From NCBI RefSeq assembly GCF_029962485.1, contig NZ_CP073638.1:868001-932000 (forward strand): DNA of 64,000 nt, written 5' to 3'. Source of the DNA: Burkholderia cepacia (GTDB lineage Bacteria > Pseudomonadota > Gammaproteobacteria > Burkholderiales > Burkholderiaceae). This document shows positions 24,501 through 34,706 of the stretch, in pieces (the stretch's first letter is position 1; each line of letters begins with the position of its first letter). The translations under genes and the position numbers were made by a program. The notes under the pieces are model-generated. The model saw only the letters and a list, made by a program, of their open reading frames with translations. It had not been told where the DNA came from and did not search any database.

Positions 24501-25730
24501 ATGGAAGAGAAACATCACAGCTCCGTCGGCATCCAGGTGGACGAACACGGCATGCACCTGCCGACGCGCACGTCGGTATCGCGGCGCGGGCGCATCGTCC
24601 TGATCGTGATCGGCGTGCTGCTGGCCGCCGGCGCCGCGCGCACGATCGTCGTCAACGTGCTGAACCGCAACCGGCTCGACGCGGTCGCCGAGCAGAACAC
24701 GCGCCAGTACGTGAACGTCGTGCATCCGGTCGACGCGGCCACCGGCGGCAAGCTGACGCTGCCCGGCACGCTGCGCGGCTTCGTCGAGGCGCCCATCTAC
24801 GCGCGGGCGAGCGGCTACGTGCTGCGCTGGCAGGCCGACATCGGCGCGCACGTGAAGCAGGGGCAGACGCTCGCCGAACTCGATACACCCGAGCTGAACC
24901 AGGAACTCGCGCAGGCCACCGCGCAACGCCAGCAGGCGCAGGCCGCGCTCGCGCTCGCGAAGACGTCGTTCGACCGCGCGCAGCAGCTGCGCCAGCGCGA
25001 TGCCGTGTCGCAGCAGGAACTCGACGACCGGCAAGGCGCGTTCAACCAGGGCAGCGCGAACCTCGCCGCGGCCGATGCGAACATGCGCCGGCTCACCGAG
25101 CTGAAGGGTTTCCAGCGGATCGTCGCGCCGATCGACGGGATCGTCACGCAGCGCAACGTCGACGTCGGCGATCTCGTCAATTCGGGCAACGCGGGCCGCT
25201 CGCTGTTCACGGTCGTGCAGGCCGACCGGCTGCGCCTCTACGTGCAGGTGCCGCAGGCGTACGCGCAGCAGGTGAAGGTCGGCCAGCACGTGAGCGTCGC
25301 GCAGGCCGAACTGCCGGGCAAGACGTTCGACGGCACGATCACGCGCACGTCCGAGGCGATCGACGTCGCGACGCGCTCGCTGCAGATCGAGATCACGCTG
25401 CCGAACCCGGACGGCCGGCTGCTGCCCGGCGCCTACGTGCAGGCCACGCTGCCGATGACGCCGGTCGGCCGCCTGCAGGTCCCGGCCAATACGCTGCTGT
25501 TCCGCGGCGAAGGCCCGACGGTCGCGACCGTCGATGCGAACGGGCAAGTCCATCTGAAGCAGGTGACGGTCGTGCGCACGATCGGCCAGACGCTCGAAGT
25601 CGACGGCCCGCTCACGCCGGCCGACCGCCTCGTCGCGAACCCGAGCGACGCGCTTGCGAACGGCGACAAGGTCGTCGTGCAGGCACCGGCCGCGCAACCG
25701 GCATCGGCCGCCTCGGGAGCGAAGTCGTGA
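24501..25730 (+). CDS. RND efflux periplasmic adaptor (MFP)
   Basis: A 409-aa HlyD/AcrA-type membrane-fusion protein. It has a cytosolic head, one N-terminal membrane anchor (about 32-53) and no lipobox, then a barrel-sandwich lipoyl domain with ASGYVLRWQADIGAHVKQGQTLAELDT, a coiled-coil hairpin rich in Gln/Ala (about 130-195) and a beta-barrel. It links the inner-membrane pump to the outer-membrane channel. The ATG at 24501 is 36 nt after the pump gene; a TTG at 24489 is an in-frame alternative. Its stop overlaps the GTG start of the channel gene. Confidence 0.93.
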   Translation: MEEKHHSSVGIQVDEHGMHLPTRTSVSRRGRIVLIVIGVLLAAGAARTIVVNVLNRNRLDAVAEQNTRQYVNVVHPVDAATGGKLTLPGTLRGFVEAPIYARASGYVLRWQADIGAHVKQGQTLAELDTPELNQELAQATAQRQQAQAALALAKTSFDRAQQLRQRDAVSQQELDDRQGAFNQGSANLAAADANMRRLTELKGFQRIVAPIDGIVTQRNVDVGDLVNSGNAGRSLFTVVQADRLRLYVQVPQAYAQQVKVGQHVSVAQAELPGKTFDGTITRTSEAIDVATRSLQIEITLPNPDGRLLPGAYVQATLPMTPVGRLQVPANTLLFRGEGPTVATVDANGQVHLKQVTVVRTIGQTLEVDGPLTPADRLVANPSDALANGDKVVVQAPAAQPASAASGAKS

Positions 25731-27238
25731 CCGCGATGCGTATCCGCGTGCGGCCCGTCGCGCTCGCCGCCGTCGCGGCAGCCGCCCTCGCCGGCTGTGC
25801 CGTCGGCCCGGACTACCAGCGCCCGGCCGTCGACACGCCGGCCGCATGGCGGCTCGACCCGGCCGACGCGTACTGGCATCCGGCCGCGCCGGCCCGCGCG
25901 CCGCTCGATCCCGCGTGGTGGACCGCGTTCGGCGATCCGCAACTCGACGCACTGGAAACCGACGCGCTGCGCAACAACCAGAACCTGAAGGCCGTGGCCG
26001 CGCGCTACGACCAGGCGAAGGCGACGCTCGCGTCCGTCGCATCCGCGCAATATCCGGCTGTCGGCCTGAACGCGAGCGGCCAGCGCTTCAAGATCTCCGC
26101 CGACCGGCCGCAGACCAACTACGCGACGCAAAGCATGTCGACCGTGCAGAACGACGTCCAGGTCGGTGCGGCCGTCAGCTACGAGCTCGACCTGTTCGGC
26201 CGCGTGCGGCGCAGCGTCGAATCGGCACAGGCGACCACCGAGCAGGCGCACGACGATTTCGCGAACGCTCGCCTCGTGCTGACGGCCGACCTTGCGTCGA
26301 GCTATTTCGCGCTGCGCGAACTCGATACCGAGATCGATGTCGTCAAACGTTCGATCGACCTGCAGCAGAAGGCGCTCGACTACGTGAGCGCGCGCCACGA
26401 CCTCGGCGCGGTGTCGGGCCTCGACCTGCTGCAGCAGCGCTCGCAGCTCGACGCGACGCGCACGCAGGCGCAGTTGCTGCTCCAGCAGCGCGCGCAGGTC
26501 GAAACCGCGATCGCGACGCTGGTCGGCACGCCGGCCCCCGAATTCTCGCTGCCGTCGCGCGTGGTGCCGATCAACGCGCCCGCGCTGCCGACCGGCATGC
26601 CGAGCGACCTGCTGCAGCGGCGCCCCGACGTCGCGTCGGCCGAGCGCGCGATGGCGGCCGCGAACGCGCAGATCGGCGTCGCGCGCGCCGCGTATTTCCC
26701 GCGCATCACGCTGTCGCCGGACATCGGCTGGGATGCAACGCGCTTCGCGAGTCTGTTCAGCGTGCCGGCGCTGCTGTGGTCGGTCGGCGGGTCGCTCAGC
26801 CAGCCGCTCTTCGAAGGCGGCAGGCTGAAGGCTGGCGTCGATTTCGCGCAGGCCGGCTACGTCGCCGCGCAGGCCAGCTACCGGCAGACCGTGCTCACCG
26901 CGTTCCAGGAGGTGCAAAATGCGGTCACGGGCCTGTCGGTCCTCGCCGACGCCGCGCAGCAGGCATCCGCGGCCGTCGACGACGCGCGCAAGCTCGTGTC
27001 GCTCGCGCAGGACCGCTACGCGGGCGGCCTGACGCCGTTCATCGACGTGCTGACGGCCCAGCAGCAACTGTTGACGAGCGAGCGACAGGCCGTGCAGATC
27101 CAGGGCCAGCGCGCGGCGCTCGTCGTGTTTCTCGCGAAGGCGCTCGGCGGCGGCTGGGACGGCGCCGCGACGAGCGGCGCCACGCCGTCCGACGTCGCGG
27201 CGGCGGGCCCGCAGCGCACCGCGGGCGTCGGCCCTTAA
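25727..27238 (+). CDS. Outer-membrane efflux lipoprotein (NodT/OprM family)
   Basis: A 503-aa TolC-like channel. A signal peptide with lipobox ALAGC is followed by VGPDYQRPAVDTPAAW, typical of NodT-type lipoproteins, then two outer-membrane-efflux repeats with long helices. It forms the exit duct of the tripartite pump. I used GTG at 25727, which gives a 4-nt overlap (GTGA) with the adaptor stop and a GGGAG site upstream; ATG at 25736 would also give a functional signal peptide. It is followed 22 nt later by the response regulator gene. Confidence 0.94.
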   Translation: MTAMRIRVRPVALAAVAAAALAGCAVGPDYQRPAVDTPAAWRLDPADAYWHPAAPARAPLDPAWWTAFGDPQLDALETDALRNNQNLKAVAARYDQAKATLASVASAQYPAVGLNASGQRFKISADRPQTNYATQSMSTVQNDVQVGAAVSYELDLFGRVRRSVESAQATTEQAHDDFANARLVLTADLASSYFALRELDTEIDVVKRSIDLQQKALDYVSARHDLGAVSGLDLLQQRSQLDATRTQAQLLLQQRAQVETAIATLVGTPAPEFSLPSRVVPINAPALPTGMPSDLLQRRPDVASAERAMAAANAQIGVARAAYFPRITLSPDIGWDATRFASLFSVPALLWSVGGSLSQPLFEGGRLKAGVDFAQAGYVAAQASYRQTVLTAFQEVQNAVTGLSVLADAAQQASAAVDDARKLVSLAQDRYAGGLTPFIDVLTAQQQLLTSERQAVQIQGQRAALVVFLAKALGGGWDGAATSGATPSDVAAAGPQRTAGVGP

Positions 27239-27260
27239 CCCGGTTACGCGGAATACGAAC

Positions 27261-27956
27261 ATGAAAGTGCTGATCGTCGAAGACGAACCGAAAGTCGTCG
27301 AATACCTGAAGAGCGGCCTGACCGAGGAAGGCTGGGTCGTCGACACCGCGCTCGACGGCGAGGACGGCGCATGGAAGGCCGTCGAATTCGACTACGACGT
27401 GGTCGTGCTCGATGTGATGCTGCCAAAGCTCGATGGCTTCGGCGTGCTGCGTGCGTTGCGCGCGCAGAAGCAGACGCCCGTCATCATGCTGACCGCGCGC
27501 GACCGCGTCGACGATCGCGTGCGCGGGCTGCGCGGTGGCGCCGACGACTACCTGACCAAGCCCTTCTCGTTCCTCGAGCTGATCGAGCGGCTGCGCGCGC
27601 TGACGCGCCGCGCGCGCGTGCAGGAATCGACGCTGATCTCGATCGGTGACCTGCGCGTCGACCTGATCGGCCGCCGTGCGACCCGCGACGGCACGCGGCT
27701 CGACCTGACCGCGCAGGAGTTCCAGCTGCTCGGCGTGCTCGCGCGGCGCAGCGGCGAAGTGCTGTCGAAGACGACGATCGCCGAACTCGTGTGGGACGTG
27801 AACTTCGACAGCAACGCGAACGTCGTCGAGACGGCGATCAAGCGGCTGCGCGCGAAACTCGACGGCCCGTTCGCGGACAAGCTGCTGCACACGATCCGCG
27901 GGATGGGCTACGTGCTCGAGGCGCGCGAGGACGGTGACACCGAGAGGACGGCATGA
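27261..27956 (+). CDS. OmpR/CusR-type response regulator
   Basis: A 231-aa two-domain regulator. The receiver domain carries phospho-acceptor D51 (VVVLDVMLPKLDG) and conserved K100 (DDYLTKPF). The C-terminal winged helix (about 130-222) carries the OmpR transactivation-loop pattern LTAQEFQLLGVLARRSGEVLSKTTI. It resembles the CusR/CzcR/IrlR branch that controls metal or drug efflux. The gene is 22 nt after the efflux channel gene and overlaps the sensor kinase start by 4 nt (ATGA), so it is probably in the same operon as the pump it regulates. Confidence 0.95.
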   Translation: MKVLIVEDEPKVVEYLKSGLTEEGWVVDTALDGEDGAWKAVEFDYDVVVLDVMLPKLDGFGVLRALRAQKQTPVIMLTARDRVDDRVRGLRGGADDYLTKPFSFLELIERLRALTRRARVQESTLISIGDLRVDLIGRRATRDGTRLDLTAQEFQLLGVLARRSGEVLSKTTIAELVWDVNFDSNANVVETAIKRLRAKLDGPFADKLLHTIRGMGYVLEAREDGDTERTA

Positions 27957-29401
27957 AACGCTCGATCGTCCTGCGGCTGTCGGCGATGTTCGGCATCGTG
28001 TCGCTGCTCGTGTTCACGCTGGTCGGCTGCGGGCTGTTCGTGATGATGGAGCGCCAGCTGTTCGCCGAGTTGCGCGCGACGATCGACACGCGCGCGAAGG
28101 TCGCCGAGATGATCGTGTCGCATGCCACCACGGCCGCACGCGGCCGCCTGATGCAGGAAAAGCTCGCCGATCTCGAACCGCCCGACGGCTCGACGCACTA
28201 CCAGGTCGTCAGCGACAACCCGGCGTTCCGCTTCGGCAGCCCCGTCAACGGCGTGCCGCTCGACCCGCCGTTCGGCGCGTACCAGCGCTACGAGCTCAAC
28301 GACAGCAGCTACGCGGTGATGACGAAGACCGTCTCGCTGGCCGGCGCCGGCGAACGGCCGCCACTGCAGCTGGTGGTCGCGACGTCGTGCGAGCGCACGC
28401 AGCGGATGCTGCGCCGCTTCGGCTGGACGCTCGCCGCGCTGATCGCGACGGCCACCGTCATCACGCTGCTGCTGAGCCGCGCGGTCGCGCGCTTCGGGCT
28501 CGCGCCGCTCGACCGGTTGTCGCAGGACGCGGCGAGCGTGAGCGCGACCAACCGCCGCCAGCGGTTGCAGACCGATGCGCTGCCGACCGAGCTGCGCGAC
28601 CTCGCGACGTCGTTCAACGGCGCGCTCGAACGGATCCAGCAGACCTACGCGCGGCTCGAAGCGTTCAACGCGGACGTCGCGCACGAGCTGCGCACGCCGA
28701 TCAGCATCCTGATCGGCCAGACCCAGGTCGCGCTGACGAGCCGCGACCAGTCGGTCGACCGGATGCGTCAGACGCTGCAGTCGAACCTCGAGGAATTCGA
28801 GCGGCTGCGCGTGATCATCAACGACATGCTGTTCCTGTCGCGCAGCGATCGCGGCGAGCGAGCGACCGACCTGAAGGACGTGTCGCTTGCCGACGAGGTG
28901 CGGCGCATGCTCGATTTCCTCGAAATTCCGCTCGACGAGGCGCAGTTGCATGCCGAACTGCACGGCGACGCACGCGCGGCCGTCGATCCATCGCTGTTCC
29001 GCCGCGCGATGACGAACCTGCTGATCAACGCGATCCAGCATTCGGCGCCCGGCGCGACGGTGAACGTGACGATCACGCGCCGCGACACACTCGTCGACAT
29101 GGCTGTGTCGAACCCCGGCGAGCCGATCGATCCGGTGCAGCGCCCGCACGTGTTCGAGCGCTTTTACCGGCTCGAGGAAGCGCGTGCGAACAGCAAGGAG
29201 AACCACGGGCTCGGGCTGTCGATCGTCAAGGCCGTGGCCGAGATGCACGGCGGCGGCGTGTTCGTCGCGTGTTCGGGCGGCGTCAACACGTTCGGCTTCT
29301 CGGTGTCGACGGAACCCTGCGCGGGCGGACCGCTGCGCGTGGCCGACGTAACCGGCCCGGCCGAGTCGCAGCCGGCCCACGCACCGCGCGCGCTGCACTG
29401 A
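27953..29401 (+). CDS. Heavy-metal-type sensor histidine kinase
   Basis: A 482-aa membrane sensor. TM1 is about 9-31, a periplasmic loop spans about 32-155, TM2 about 157-177, then HAMP and HisKA with phospho-accepting H244 in FNADVAHELRTPISIL. The ATPase domain has N-box NLLINAIQHS and G-box GLGLSIVKA. This is the IrlS/CusS-like architecture. The start overlaps the response-regulator stop. It would sense a periplasmic signal (metal, envelope stress or pump substrate) and phosphorylate the partner regulator. The ligand is not readable. Confidence 0.95.
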   Translation: MKRSIVLRLSAMFGIVSLLVFTLVGCGLFVMMERQLFAELRATIDTRAKVAEMIVSHATTAARGRLMQEKLADLEPPDGSTHYQVVSDNPAFRFGSPVNGVPLDPPFGAYQRYELNDSSYAVMTKTVSLAGAGERPPLQLVVATSCERTQRMLRRFGWTLAALIATATVITLLLSRAVARFGLAPLDRLSQDAASVSATNRRQRLQTDALPTELRDLATSFNGALERIQQTYARLEAFNADVAHELRTPISILIGQTQVALTSRDQSVDRMRQTLQSNLEEFERLRVIINDMLFLSRSDRGERATDLKDVSLADEVRRMLDFLEIPLDEAQLHAELHGDARAAVDPSLFRRAMTNLLINAIQHSAPGATVNVTITRRDTLVDMAVSNPGEPIDPVQRPHVFERFYRLEEARANSKENHGLGLSIVKAVAEMHGGGVFVACSGGVNTFGFSVSTEPCAGGPLRVADVTGPAESQPAHAPRALH

Positions 29402-30100: not shown

Positions 30101-30946
30101 TCAGCGCATCGCGCTGCGATACTGTCCGGGCGTCGCGGCCGCGATGCGCCGGAAAGCGCGCTGGAAATGGGCCTGGTCGGCAAAGCCGGCGTCGAGCGCG
30201 ACTTCGGCGATCGGCCGGCCACGGCGCAGCTCGGTGCGGCCGTACTGCACGCGACGATCGATCAGGAATGCATGCGGCGTCATCCCGTAGCGGGCGTTGA
30301 AGGCGCGGATCAGATACGACGGCGACAGGTCGGCCGCCGCGCAGATCGCATCGAGCGTCACGCCGTCGCGACAATGTGCGGCGATGTAGTCGGCCGCGCG
30401 CGCGAGCTTCGCATTGTCGTCGCCCGGCCGCGGGGCGGACGGTTCGCGATCGAGCGCGCCATGCAGTTGCGTGAAGAATTCGACCGCCGCGCTTTCCTTG
30501 CCGAGCGGATCGACCGATGGCGACACGAGCGTGCGATAGAACCCGCCAAATTGCGCGAACAGGTCGCTCCGCTCCGTCAACTTCGGCGAAAAGCCGTGAA
30601 AATCGCCGTTCGGATCGCGACCCAGCGAATGCTGCAGCCGCGCGAGCCACGGCACGTCGACATAGACCATCCGGTACGCCCACGCATCGGGGCCGTACGG
30701 ATTGCATGCATGCACCTGTTCCGGATCGATGATCACGAGCACGCCGCGCCCGACGTGTGCATTCGTCGCACCGTTCACGTAGGTGCTCGTGCCGCCGACG
30801 ATCGCCCCCACCGAAAACGTATCGTGCGTGTGCTTCGCGTAGCAGATCTCGCGTCCGTCGTCGACCGTGCGCGCCTCGATGAACGGCAGCGCGGCGTCGC
30901 GCCAGAACGGCGACGGGTCGATGGATCGGTTGGCGGTACGGCTCAC
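30101..30946 (-). CDS. AraC-family transcriptional regulator
   Basis: A 281-aa regulator. The N-terminal cupin-like ligand domain (about 20-150) contains HTHDTFSVGAIVGG and PEQVHACNPYG. The C-terminal AraC double helix-turn-helix (about 175-280) has DLSPSYLIRAFNARYGMTPHAFL and EVALDAGFADQAHFQRAFRR. This arrangement is frequent beside LysE exporters in proteobacteria. The start is GTG at 30946, chosen for the GGGAG site 9 nt upstream and because upstream in-frame residues have no family character. Confidence 0.9.
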   Translation of the reverse strand: MSRTANRSIDPSPFWRDAALPFIEARTVDDGREICYAKHTHDTFSVGAIVGGTSTYVNGATNAHVGRGVLVIIDPEQVHACNPYGPDAWAYRMVYVDVPWLARLQHSLGRDPNGDFHGFSPKLTERSDLFAQFGGFYRTLVSPSVDPLGKESAAVEFFTQLHGALDREPSAPRPGDDNAKLARAADYIAAHCRDGVTLDAICAAADLSPSYLIRAFNARYGMTPHAFLIDRRVQYGRTELRRGRPIAEVALDAGFADQAHFQRAFRRIAAATPGQYRSAMR

Positions 30947-31070
30947 GCGGCGGGCTCCCGGTTCGGACGGCGAACGCTCACCGTACAAGACTGTGAGGCG
31001 GCGCGCAACCGGAGCCCGGCCTGCGGGACTCGCAACGGCAAAAATCGAAGTCGCTACCGTCAAACATGAA

Positions 31071-31100
31071 TCGTGCCCACGAAAATTCTCGTGGGCACGA
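31071..31100 (-). terminator. Strong hairpin downstream of the leftward AidA-like gene
   Basis: Perfect 12-bp arms TCGTGCCCACGA / TCGTGGGCACGA around a 6-nt loop, 100 bp past the stop of the leftward AidA-family gene. In the leftward direction it is followed by a moderately T-rich stretch (TTCATGTTTG). It is the probable terminator for that gene and separates it from the AraC gene. Confidence 0.7.
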
Positions 31101-31199
31101 TCCTGCCTCCGCCGACGCGTCAACACGCGTGGCGGAGAATTTCACGCGTACGGTGAAACGGCTCCTGCGTGCCCCCGCGCGTGAGTCGAGCCGATGGGG

Positions 31200-31757
31200 T
31201 CAGGCCGGAACGTAGATCTTCGGATCCCACCAGTAGTAGCCGAACAGCTCTTGCTTCTGCCCGCCGACCAGCTTGTAGAGCGCGAAGCAAACGCCGAAGA
31301 ACTCGGTGCCGCTGTTCCTGACCGACGAGTCGAAGGTCGCGAACGTCAGCTGTTTCTGCTTCGCCGGGAGGCCATTTCGGCTGGACGACTCCGGATCGGG
31401 TTCCACCGCACCGTTGCGCACGACCGTGTTGCAGTTGAACTGGTTGAACACCATGTCACCCTTGTAGTGCTTGATGTCGTAGATGATCACGGCGTCATCG
31501 GAGTTGTCGTAGATCGACACGCCGGTGAACATGATGCGGTCGCGCGGGTAGGCGGTGATTTCCAGGTCGGCCGTACCCTGCCCCTTGATGCCGCGCGCGC
31601 CGGTGCAAATCATGAACTGGCCATTGTGAGCGATGCCCGTCGGATTGCCCTGAACCTGGCTCGGATTCGGGTAGGTTCTCTTGACCCATTCCGTGTCGAT
31701 AACCACGAGAATGTTGATGTCCTGCGCGCTTGATGCAAGGGTGACTTCGGAAGCCAT
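31200..31757 (-). CDS. AidA/PixA-family inclusion-body protein (paralogue 1)
   Basis: A 185-aa cytosolic protein of the PixA/AidA family, known from Xenorhabdus inclusion bodies and from quorum-sensing-controlled AidA of Burkholderia and Ralstonia. Family features visible here are INILVVIDTEWVKRTYPNPS near the start, DDAVIIYDIKHYKGDMVFNQF in the middle and GVCFALYKL with ELFGYYWWD at the end. There is no signal peptide. A GGAGG site lies 6 nt before the ATG. It is divergent from two further paralogues across an AT-rich region. Codon bias looks optimal, as for a highly expressed protein. Its molecular role is unknown; AidA is needed for nematode killing in B. cenocepacia (literature knowledge). 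It has the longest C-terminal tail of the three. Confidence 0.92.
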   Translation of the reverse strand: MASEVTLASSAQDINILVVIDTEWVKRTYPNPSQVQGNPTGIAHNGQFMICTGARGIKGQGTADLEITAYPRDRIMFTGVSIYDNSDDAVIIYDIKHYKGDMVFNQFNCNTVVRNGAVEPDPESSSRNGLPAKQKQLTFATFDSSVRNSGTEFFGVCFALYKLVGGQKQELFGYYWWDPKIYVPA

Positions 31758-32266
31758 GGTTAACCTCCAATCATTCAGCGTTGGGAATTGAAATCCGACG
31801 ACACGTCATTAGTGCGTCACGGTCAATATCGTCATTTTTAGCGGAACAATCAATTACACCCGATTACACGATGACGATCACCGGAATCCACACGCAATAA
31901 TCGAATTTTCGTTAGTACAAAAACCACGAAAATCAATTACAACCAATTACACCAATCGAAGCGCGCCCGCGTCCCGCCCACGAACGATAGTGAACTCGTA
32001 ATCAATGGGTGGCACCATTACCACCGGCACGTCAATCTCAAGGTCTTGCACCGGCTTGCGCCGGGCGAACCTGAAAATCCGGGCCTTTCCCGTTTGACCA
32101 GAAGCAGTTTCCGCCCCTAAAAAATCAAAATACGCCCTATTAAAATAGATCCCCCATCAAAGCTGACAGGTACAAAGACGAATATAAATTGACGATACTA
32201 AAAGAGCGCATCGCCGATGCGTCATTCGTATCGAACGGGAAATTGACCCACCACGGAGGCATTCCA
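31758..32266. promoter_or_regulatory. AT-rich divergent promoter region of the AidA cluster
   Basis: A 509-bp gap, distinctly richer in A+T than its surroundings at 31790-31960 and 32100-32210. It carries four near-identical TGTAATTG/GTAATC motifs (reverse strand) at about 31851, 31862, 31934 and 31944. On the right side, ACCTGTCAGC (reverse of 32162-32171) resembles a LuxR/CepR half-site; the full 20-mer 32152-32171 is only a partial dyad. A possible -10 GATACT at 32194 would centre this box about 44 bp before the transcription start. Ribosome sites GGAGG flank both ends. Confidence 0.55.
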
Positions 32267-32821
32267 ATGAAAATCGACCCGGATAACATCAACCTGGAAA
32301 AAGCCGCTCAATTCATTCACATTCTTGCGGTTATCGACACGCATTACGTAAAGACAAATTATCCCAATCCCAGCAAGAACGCATCCAATCCGACGGCCAT
32401 CTCCAGCAATGCCGCGTTCATGCTCAGCAGCCGCCTGCCCGGCGTGAGCAGTTCGGAAGGAACGGGCACGCTGGGCCTGAAGCTGCAGGTTCGCGACAGC
32501 GTGTCCCTGATGGGGACGTCGCTGTCCGACAACTCGGGCGACTCGGCAGTGATTTACAACGTGCGGCACTTCTCGGGTGATCGAGTCTTCAGCCAGTTTG
32601 CCGTGCATAACATCGTACAGGCCGACGCACCGAGTGCCGCAGAGACGCCCGATGTCGTTGCGATCTCGGCGCAATCCCAGGCGTTTCAAAGCCTCAACGC
32701 CGTCGCAAGCTCTTCCGGATCCGAGAACCTCGGCGCGTGTTTTGCACTTTATACGCGGGATCAAAACAAGAAGACGCTGTTCGGCTACTTCTTCTGGACC
32801 TGGCAAGCCACCGCCAGTTGA
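32267..32821 (+). CDS. AidA/PixA-family inclusion-body protein (paralogue 2)
   Basis: A 184-aa member of the AidA/PixA family: FIHILAVIDTHYVKTNYPNPS, SGDSAVIYNVRHFSGDRVFSQF and LGACFALYTRDQNKKTLFGYFFW. The ATG at 32267 was chosen over an upstream in-frame start at 32189 because GGAGG lies 7 nt before it and the product then matches the family N-terminus and the lengths of its neighbours. It is the first of two rightward paralogues and probably co-transcribed with the next, with a hairpin in the 130-bp gap. A possible quorum-sensing box lies about 100 bp upstream. It is cytosolic by sequence. Confidence 0.92.
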   Translation: MKIDPDNINLEKAAQFIHILAVIDTHYVKTNYPNPSKNASNPTAISSNAAFMLSSRLPGVSSSEGTGTLGLKLQVRDSVSLMGTSLSDNSGDSAVIYNVRHFSGDRVFSQFAVHNIVQADAPSAAETPDVVAISAQSQAFQSLNAVASSSGSENLGACFALYTRDQNKKTLFGYFFWTWQATAS

Positions 32822-32892
32822 GGCAAGCGCCCCGACCACTCGCTCCGAAGCCGGACGGGAGCGATTCGAGCCAGCAGCCAGCAGGTCTTGCG

Positions 32893-32912
32893 CGGCGCCT
32901 CGCAGGGCGCCG
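32893..32912 (+). terminator. Hairpin between the two rightward AidA-like genes
   Basis: Perfect arms CGGCGCC / GGCGCCG with a 6-nt loop followed by CCCCCTTT. This is a weak terminator or attenuator position. It could reduce expression of the distal paralogue or protect the upstream message from 3' decay. Confidence 0.45.
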
Positions 32913-32951
32913 CCCCCTTTCCGCGACAAAGCCCGAATGGAGGCACCACGT

Positions 32952-33506
32952 ATGACAGCCGATCTTGGAAGCATCAGTCTCGACCCGAGCGCGCAGCAGA
33001 TCGACATCCTGGCCGTAATCGACACGGAATACGTCAAGAGGAGGTACCCGAATCCGAGCAAGCAGCCCGAGAGACCGACCGCCGTCGATCATCGCGCCGT
33101 GAACCTGCTTTACACCGGGGCACGAGGTGAGGCGCTCGGAAATGGCGCCGCTGAATCACGTCTGACGCTGGTCCCGGGCGACACCGTTTCACTCAGGGCG
33201 GTATCCCTGTACGGGAACGCGGACGAGGCCGTGCTCGTTTATCAGGTTTCGCACCTTTTCGGCCAGCAGGTTTTCAACCCGTTTACGCAGGAGTTCCTTG
33301 AAGTGAAGGCCGTGCAACTGAACCCTGAAACGTCCGACGGCCTGCCGCCGGTGACGAAGTTGCAAACTTTCGTCAGCATTGGCGCCAAGGCGAGAACGAG
33401 CGGGATAGAAACGCTTGGCGCCTGCTTCGGACTCTATACGCTGGAAAGAAGCACGCAGGAGCTGCTGGGATACTACTGGTGGGACTGGTTCGTCATGTGC
33501 TCCTGA
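32952..33506 (+). CDS. AidA/PixA-family inclusion-body protein (paralogue 3)
   Basis: A 184-aa family member: IDILAVIDTEYVKRRYPNPS, ADEAVLVYQVSHLFGQQVFNPF and LGACFGLYTLERSTQELLGYYWWD. The start ATG at 32952 has GGAGG 8 nt upstream; an ATG at 32937 (MEAPRM) lies before that site and is less likely. The open frame extends far upstream without family resemblance. It follows paralogue 2 on the same strand. Sequence divergence among the three is high outside the conserved blocks, so they are old duplicates, not recent copies. They may co-assemble (inference). Confidence 0.92.
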   Translation: MTADLGSISLDPSAQQIDILAVIDTEYVKRRYPNPSKQPERPTAVDHRAVNLLYTGARGEALGNGAAESRLTLVPGDTVSLRAVSLYGNADEAVLVYQVSHLFGQQVFNPFTQEFLEVKAVQLNPETSDGLPPVTKLQTFVSIGAKARTSGIETLGACFGLYTLERSTQELLGYYWWDWFVMCS

Positions 33507-33911
33507 TAATTGCCTGCCGTTGCCGTGCTTCGCAAAGGCTGCGAGCGCGGGTCGCGAGGCAGGCAGGCGGCAGGCGCGAAATCCGCCAGCGGCGCCTGTG
33601 GCGCCGATCCATTCGGACCGGATGCACGCACGCTCCCATCGCAGCCCGCGAACGCGTCATCGGGTTGGTTCCCTGCGGGCGAAGCACACGCGCGAGATTC
33701 CGACCTCGGCTCAGTCCACCTGAGCCGACCGGGATCTCGCGCGTGTGCGACTCACGAACAGGCTGCGCTTCACGTCCGCATCCGGAACGTATACATCAAC
33801 GCCGCCGCCTCACGCGCGGAATGGCCTGTTGATCGAAATTCTCCTAAGCTTTGAATTCCGTCCGCCGCGGCGCGCGCGGCGGCTTCCATTCACTCCTCCC
33901 CCGTCACGCTC
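33507..33911. other. Intergenic region after the AidA cluster
   Basis: A 405-bp gap without a convincing gene. It contains one exceptionally large hairpin (listed separately) and, near 33840, a short AT-richer patch with AATTCTCCTAAGCTTTGAATT that may be the promoter of the following SDR gene. Confidence 0.55.
33684..33748. terminator. Long imperfect hairpin downstream of the AidA cluster
   Basis: The outer stem is 15 bp perfect (GCACACGCGCGAGAT with ATCTCGCGCGTGTGC) and the inner stem 9 bp perfect (TCGGCTCAG with CTGAGCCGA) around a TCCAC loop, separated by a small internal bulge. Total span is 65 nt. No U-tract follows in either direction. It lies 178 bp past the last AidA-like stop and could be a 3'-end stabilising structure, a Rho-assisted terminator or a protein-binding site. 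Confidence 0.6.
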
Positions 33912-34706
33912 ATGCACATCGATCTGAAAGGCAAGACCGCGGTCGTCACCGCCTCCACCGCCGGCATCGGGCTCGCGATCGCCGAAGGGCTCGCGCGCGC
34001 CGGTGCGCGCGTCGTCGTCAACGGCCGCAGCGACACGTCGGTGCAGTCGGCGCTCGCGCAATTGCGCGCGGCCGTGCCCGGCGCGAGCTTCGACGGCGTC
34101 GCCGCCGACCTGTCCGACGCGGCCGGCGTCGCGCGTATCACGCAGCACACGCCGGAGGCCGACATCCTCGTCAACAATGCGGGCATCTACGGGCTGAAGG
34201 CGTTCTTCGAGATCGACGACGCCGAGTGGGAACATTACTTCCAGATGAACGTGATGTCCGGCGTGCGGCTCGCGCGGCATTACCTGAAGGGGATGATCGA
34301 ACGCAATGCCGGGCGCATCGTGTTCATTTCGTCGGAATCGGGCCTGAACATCCCGGTCGACATGATTCATTACGGGTTCACGAAAACCGCGCAGCTGTCG
34401 ATCGCGCGCGGCCTCGCCAAGCTCGCGGCCGGCACCCAGGTGACCGTCAACTCGGTGCTGCCGGGGCCGACGATGTCGGAAGGCGTGCGGGCGATGCTGA
34501 AGGCGCAGGCCGACGAAACGGGCCGCAGCATCGACGACGTCGCGGTGGATTTCGTCCGCACGCAGCGTGCGACGTCGATTATCCAGCGGCCGGCGTTGCC
34601 CGAGGAAATCGCGAACCTGGTCGTGTACGTGTGCTCGCCGCTGGCGTCGGCGACCACGGGCGCCGCGCTACGCGCGGACGGCGGCGTGCTCGACACGATC
34701 GCGTAA
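33912..34706 (+). CDS. Short-chain dehydrogenase/reductase
   Basis: A 264-aa classical SDR: cofactor motif TASTAGIG at about 13-20, NNAG near residue 90, catalytic Ser in FISSESG and Tyr/Lys in YGFTK. The middle of the glycine motif is TASTAGIG instead of TGxxxGIG, a common variant. It is an NAD(P)-dependent oxidoreductase of unknown substrate. It stands alone, downstream of the AidA cluster, and converges on a lipoprotein gene whose stop is 39 bp away. Confidence 0.92.
   Translation: MHIDLKGKTAVVTASTAGIGLAIAEGLARAGARVVVNGRSDTSVQSALAQLRAAVPGASFDGVAADLSDAAGVARITQHTPEADILVNNAGIYGLKAFFEIDDAEWEHYFQMNVMSGVRLARHYLKGMIERNAGRIVFISSESGLNIPVDMIHYGFTKTAQLSIARGLAKLAAGTQVTVNSVLPGPTMSEGVRAMLKAQADETGRSIDDVAVDFVRTQRATSIIQRPALPEEIANLVVYVCSPLASATTGAALRADGGVLDTIA

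Follow-up and report, generated by a model that had tools for sequence, protein, structure and literature searches.

PixA proteins in Burkholderia and the three-gene locus

PixA/AidA proteins are strongly regulated and have been linked to the killing of nematodes and to survival at low oxygen, but the literature consulted calls them poorly understood. Burkholderia cenocepacia J2315 has five of them, among which BCAM1412 and BCAM1414 have been named as AidA orthologs and BCAM1413 corresponds to PDB 4lzk; deletion of bnr1 (BCAS0292) in B. cenocepacia K56-2 reduced all five proteins, up to 17-fold (PMC9060813; this and the other papers are cited here from parts of their text). Direct binding of CepR was reported for the aidA-bnr1 operon (BCAS0293-BCAS0292) (PMC3502180). 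Outside the genus, aidA genes of Photorhabdus and Ralstonia lie beside LuxR-type regulators, and the aidA promoter region of P. luminescens is divergent and bidirectional (PMC10143992). Here we describe three PixA genes found together (the triad) in a 64,000-nucleotide stretch of Burkholderia cepacia (GCF_029962485.1, contig NZ_CP073638.1), hereafter the window, which is C2:868001-932000 of its genome. On balance, we consider it somewhat more likely than not that the triad is a selected set served by two promoters, with that of gene 1 under a putative activator that reads a TGTAAT box.

The genes are those that an earlier note, made from the sequence alone, had pointed out: one leftward and two rightward, all intact, each with a GGAGG site ahead of its start codon. 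All three match PF12306 far above the curated cut-off (21 bits, applied to whole-protein matches; Table 1), and their lengths fit the PixA range of about 173–191 amino acids (PMC9060813). Gene 2 matches PDB 4lzk with an E-value of 2.8e-75, and on account of this match a jelly-roll fold is expected for the triad proteins. The closest known system is B. cenocepacia BCAM1412, BCAM1413 and BCAM1414. The arrangement of three genes seen in the window recurs, at the same site, in genome G007 of our survey, whose gene 2 agrees with 4lzk along its length, as judged by eye; gene 2 of the window, however, is 66% identical to its B. cenocepacia counterpart. The triad proteins are thus not new as a kind. 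Among open-licence full texts in PMC, the locus tags BCAM1412–1414 occur in PMC9060813 only. The earlier note took three divergent paralogues in one locus to suggest hetero-assembly or alternative expression, which it did not know to have been described. PMC9060813 already gives the proteins and how many there are, but the consulted parts of that paper describe neither the block nor its insertion site nor its promoter. The block structure, the two promoter blocks and the box are found here.

Five PixA matches are present in the 7.7-Mb, three-contig genome of the window: the triad on C2 and, on C3, an adjacent aidA/bnr1-like pair of the same family. The triad proteins are 37–44% identical to one another and 20–29% identical to AidA and Bnr1. 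Across many genomes, the bnr1-like gene (G000:C3:538820 and its orthologs) lies in an open frame that runs for about 319 codons, past the PixA domain. Unlike the Photorhabdus and Ralstonia systems, in which lux-box-like sites and a luxR-type gene lie across the shared region (PMC10143992), the triad has another PixA gene in that place.

The three genes belong to old, separate lineages. In a quick tree that contains long branches, the orthologs of genes 1, 2 and 3 each form one clade (support 99, 99 and 100); the gene 1 clade groups with second genes of pairs from other genera, and the gene 2 clade with a gene of G076, a genome of another genus of the same family. Among 398 genomes sampled across the family, 80 had a PixA match at an E-value of 1e-15 or better, and G076 held the only other three-gene cluster seen. 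Its g1-like and g2-like genes are divergent as in the triad, whereas its third gene comes from another PixA clade and adjoins the g1-like gene, and box scores (see below) are all ≤8 in the 10.5 kb around it. This cluster (L131), with its different third gene, suggests an older, larger cluster. Ratios of nonsynonymous to synonymous substitution (dN/dS) of 0.23 for gene 1 (15 pairs), 0.40 for gene 2 (21 pairs) and 0.28 for gene 3 (21 pairs) indicate that all three genes are under purifying selection. The cassette would then consist of three anciently diverged jelly-roll proteins of the PixA family retained as a set.

That the paralogs arose by ordinary local duplication and carry no meaning as a cluster is very improbable: PixA genes are often paired in this bacterial family, but the three clades are old and separate, g1-like and g2-like genes occur in another genus, and selection acts on every gene.

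Complete triads were found in 7 of 65 Burkholderia genomes, 36 of which have PixA matches, and never a partial set at the 51 loci where the flanking genes adjoin. The pattern of scattered single copies only, against which the earlier note had set its three-gene arrangement, did not occur for the triad set. All-or-none occurrence in seven loci, the adjacency of genes 2 and 3 and the dimeric state of Bnr1 (PMC9060813) would also suit co-assembly of the three proteins into a mixed inclusion or oligomer that keeps the genes together. This is compatible with a selected set under a box-reading activator, but we find it improbable, as the paralogs are 37–44% identical, lone PixA genes are common, and G026 has a gene 1 broken across two frames next to open genes 2 and 3.

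Two promoter blocks and the TGTAAT box

The 509 bp between the start codons of genes 1 and 2 are, as the earlier note stated to the base, AT-rich (47.5% GC versus 68.1% in the window). Of all 509-bp segments, 0.3% have a GC content this low and each of these overlaps the region, which is the lowest-GC place in the window. The single shared promoter proposed there did not survive the alignment of the seven orthologous intergenic regions (354–712 bp, 45–48% GC), and one promoter common to both directions is rejected: two separately conserved blocks, beside gene 1 and beside gene 2, flank a freely variable middle. Promoter-like sites in the 509 bp number 2, versus 0.9 expected.

In the window, the left block holds two exact copies, 83 bp apart, of AATCAATTACA..ATTACA, which reads TGTAAT-N4-TGTAAT towards gene 1. 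The near copy abuts TTGATT, a plausible -35 hexamer as read from the sequence. At least one copy is present in all seven triads, with a mismatch in G027, and CAATATC, in the -10 area, is kept in six of the seven, being one base off in G058. We infer that the promoter of gene 1 combines a -35-like hexamer with an abutting tandem direct repeat, the latter read by a putative activator. The second block has a predicted promoter of its own, in which TGACAGGTA is kept in 7/7 triads and TATAAAT or a near form in 6/7 (the exception is G027). Downstream of it, in the predicted gene 2 leader, the palindrome GCGCATCGCCGATGCG recurs in 6/7 triads, and in G058 the inner stem is still present but outer and loop bases differ. 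Gene 3 has no TGTAAT box directly ahead (same-strand upstream score -11.6, L003). Genes 2 and 3 are a probable operon, presumably transcribed from the promoter in the second block.

Table 1. Features of the PixA locus; positions refer to the window.
Feature	Position	Strand	Remarks
gene 1	31200..31757	-	185 aa, PixA family; PF12306 152.7 bits
gene 2	32267..32821	+	184 aa, PixA family; PF12306 114.7 bits; BCAM1413 / PDB 4lzk ortholog
gene 3	32952..33506	+	184 aa, PixA family; PF12306 127.0 bits; start 130 bp past gene 2
AT-rich divergent region	31758..32266	.	509 bp between start codons, 47.5% GC
box copy A	31848..31868	-	TGTAATCGGGTGTAATTGATT; 111 bp from the start of gene 1; score 35.9
box copy B	31931..31951	-	TGTAATTGGTTGTAATTGATT; 194 bp from the start of gene 1; score 28.8
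predicted gene 1 core promoter	31825..31853	-	putative -35 TTGATT (31848-31853), 17-bp spacer, putative -10 GATATT (31825-31830)
predicted gene 2 promoter	32163..32190	+	CTGACA ... TATAAAT, second conserved block
palindrome	32206..32221	.	GCGCATCGCCGATGCG; predicted gene 2 leader
hairpin after gene 1	31070..31101	-	z -8.5
hairpin after gene 3	33684..33748	+	z -9.8
PixA cassette	31013..33842	.	block absent from G056 and 43 other AraC/SDR loci; ~2.83 kb
AraC-family regulator, left flank	30101..31018	-	start uncertain
SDR (short-chain dehydrogenase-like), right flank	33912..34706	+	family named from reading the sequence

The box is not confined to the triad. Its exact form occurs at 122 sites in 46 of the 65 genomes, and the reversed control pattern at 0. 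By a count from the match table, 64 of these sites fall into two near one-per-genome groups with spacers CGCC and CAAA, 10 lie in triads, 8 precede other PixA genes and 40 remain. The members of the two groups in the genome of the window (L099 at C1:2088943 and L100 at C2:1338944) stand beside an aminotransferase-like and a flagellar-hook-like gene, named by eye.

A matrix built from 28 sites, whose maximum on a clean null was 12.3 in 713,548 positions, scored ≥19.8 on the gene's strand upstream of 16 of the 22 PixA genes that are neither aidA-type nor in a triad. Eight of the 16 loci lie outside the matrix; the leave-one-out scores drop the tested locus and keep its near-identical orthologs. 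The upstream box in G062 scores 33.5, and that of L033 (G049) scores 38.1, with a weaker site (27.0) on the opposite strand. In 13 of the 15 sites measured, the box lies 194–200 bp ahead of the Pfam match (187 and 224 bp in the others). Both second genes of tandem pairs are without it. The aidA-type loci differ from the triad in this respect, with a box at 0/22 (best scores 1.2 on the gene's strand and 13.6 on the opposite one). Outside the genus, 14 loci were scored and a box emerged at one of them, ahead of the g1-like gene of G096 (score 19.5, approximately 226 bp before the Pfam match). The box divides the PixA genes of the genus into two promoter groups, one of which is tied to some lectin-like genes.

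This tie comes from the 40 remaining sites, for 21 of which the next gene was read (L105 showed none). Nine box-linked proteins were scanned with Pfam and the others judged by eye. An H-type lectin stands behind the box at L103 (PF09458, 29.7 bits) and a similar one, by eye, at L121; two further proteins have sub-threshold matches to ricin-type lectins. A family of 96–97 amino acids (MSNENFSE...; L106, L107, L114, L122) follows at least four sites; the single member submitted to Pfam gave no match. Also box-linked are a NUDIX protein, a LuxR-type regulator and several genes of no assigned type. The combination TGTAATC, "direct repeat" and Burkholderia gave no match in open-licence PMC papers.

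It is tempting to see here a new Burkholderia regulon, in which one activator bound at TGTAAT-N4-TGTAAT next to the -35 would turn on the genes of PixA proteins, of H-type and ricin-type-like lectins and of further small proteins. Such a regulon would parallel the aidA/lectin programme driven by CepR, and the triad would be one of its modules, moving from one species to another by recombination in its conserved flanks. We hold this broader view tentatively, at slightly less than even chances. In our preferred reading, the putative activator of gene 1 would also act on further PixA genes and on certain lectin-like genes of the genus, and the products would probably accumulate as small, mostly acidic proteins, either soluble or inclusion-forming. 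Their predicted isoelectric points are 5.34, 6.03 and 4.88 for genes 1, 2 and 3; gene 3 alone is below 5, which together with a size below 25 kDa is among the DNA-mimic criteria proposed for Bnr1 (PMC9060813). Inclusion bodies that become more abundant as cells approach stationary phase are a trait expected of the PixA family. The setting is probably a stationary-phase or host/predator-facing programme in common with lectin-like proteins; by analogy with AidA and Bnr1, and from the lectin-like company, formation of inclusions or defence against grazers may be envisaged.

Several observations weigh against a box-reading activator of the triad and of other genes. The gene 2 promoter has no TGTAAT box of its own, and joint control of the three genes is not implied. 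In the genome of the window, the long form of the box (≤3 mismatches) is found at the triad only, plus one site with three mismatches, and the regulon could be this locus alone. Four lone PixA genes have no box (two in G013, one in G036 and a fragment in G037). The lectin link consists of a single protein that passes the Pfam cut-off, another recognized by eye and two sub-threshold matches. Finally, a regulator common to the surroundings of box sites did not emerge: among the best 25 of 89 families, none was present in more than 3 of 72 neighbouring open reading frames.

Candidate readers of the box

The most serious alternative is that the triad, like aidA, is part of the quorum-sensing regulon of CepR, by way of a site that is diverged or indirect. 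We regard it as unlikely, although by no means negligible. Few genes depend on CepR as strongly as aidA and bnr1 do (PMC2753556, PMC3426421), and the drop of all five PixA proteins in the bnr1 mutant (PMC9060813) points the same way. With a cep-box matrix made from Table 2 of PMC1766932 (training sites score 15.9–28.3), four triads reach 15.1–16.2, values attained by 1.5–3% of shuffles, and G001, G007 and G026 have such a cep-box-like place in common near the gene 1 start. The best score in the window, on the other hand, is 13.2, matched by 13% of shuffles, no one place scores well across all seven triads, and BCAM1412–1414 are absent from the main texts of PMC2753556, PMC3502180, PMC3426421 and PMC3356288.

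Comparison with aidA itself does not separate the two. The full matrix gives 18.7 for the aidA of the same genome, 21.6 for that of G056 and 12.3–16.2 for the triads, but the aidA site is itself in the matrix and the control is not independent. When that site is left out, the 22 aidA-type loci score 8.4–19.3 and the contrast with the triads is gone; the triads then score 11.3–16.5, no lower than the aidA of the same genome (13.7).

The reader of the TGTAAT box is probably not CepR, since aidA, the best-known direct CepR target, is without the box at 22/22 loci. A LuxR-type gene that bears its own box (G022, L110) was also considered as the regulator and set aside: its best match in the genome of the window is 27% identical. 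That match is probably CepR.

Close to the triad, at 25727-29401, lie genes that we named by eye as an outer-membrane factor of an RND-type pump, an OmpR-type regulator (27261-27956) and a sensor kinase (27953-29401). This is probably the BCAM1417-1419 region of J2315, with the regulator apparently at the BCAM1418 position, and the regulator is a possible candidate for reading the box. A narrower form of our preferred reading would have the box bound by a response regulator of the OmpR/PhoB type, perhaps this one. Direct repeats of 10 bp near a -35 suit that class; the CpxR box, for example, is GTAAA-N5-GTAAA. Expression of BCAM1418 is also reported, in the texts consulted, to be altered in cepR and cciR mutants. 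However, the class is suggested by the shape of the site alone, and no box sites are listed near the operon of this regulator in its own genome; we consider the proposal very unlikely as it stands. Whichever protein it is, the box offers a handle: finding its binder would reveal the condition of PixA protein production.

Insertion site and hairpins

The cassette occupies one site, between a divergent AraC-family regulator gene and an SDR gene. Homology with the empty site of G056, labelled as the same species, stops at ~31012 and restarts at 33843, which places the junctions at ~31012/31013 and 33842/33843. AraC matches were found in 54 and SDR matches in 63 of the 65 genomes; the two are adjoining and divergent in 51 and apart in G012, G025 and G053. 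Seven of the 51 loci hold the triad (2748–3504 bp between flank matches) and 44 hold none of it; 39 of the empty sites were measured (47–437 bp between matches), and G040, G041, G048, G062 and G063 were called from match tables. One or two of the three genes alone occur at 0/51 loci. G042 and G055 (L056, L060) keep both outer ends of the cassette with the three genes gone, i.e., a deletion scar. In the empty gaps of L050, L052 and L054, the place of the cassette is taken by short tandem repeats, GGATCGSYG-like and arranged in runs. Together, the empty, filled and scarred loci form natural presence/absence pairs in which the role of the set could be studied.

On a tree of the flanks (46 loci), all carriers fall inside one clade of 28 (100/100), and the sister clade of 18 is without carriers. 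Presence of the triad requires 7 changes on this tree, at least 4 if only strong branches are counted, and a tree that unites the carriers in a single clade is rejected (p 2.4e-8). Between G001 and G007, genes 1 and 2 are 96.4% and 93.3% identical, the flanks 90.5% and 91.5%, and gene 3 90.1%; gene 3 of G001 is nearer to that of G026 (93.0%) than to that of G007. These identities look like signs of cassette exchange between species. One gain followed by repeated loss and by exchange via the conserved flanks would explain the data best, the order of events being our reconstruction. Exchange via flanks together with deletion fits better than a mobile element because the block sits at one site; a mobile element was rejected, with no boundary repeats evident and no transposase or integrase between the flanks in the stretches read, although no dedicated search was made.

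Strong hairpins were said by the earlier note to bound the cluster on both sides. Both are real (z-scores in Table 1 are against 200 mononucleotide shuffles), but only the left one is conserved; place and sequence of the best hairpin downstream of gene 3 vary between triads. As no T-run follows either hairpin in the window, they are putative terminators at most. The left hairpin lies 97–136 nt past the gene 1 stop in 7/7 triads, its core pairs are kept 11/11, and three pairs are changed on both sides among relatives.

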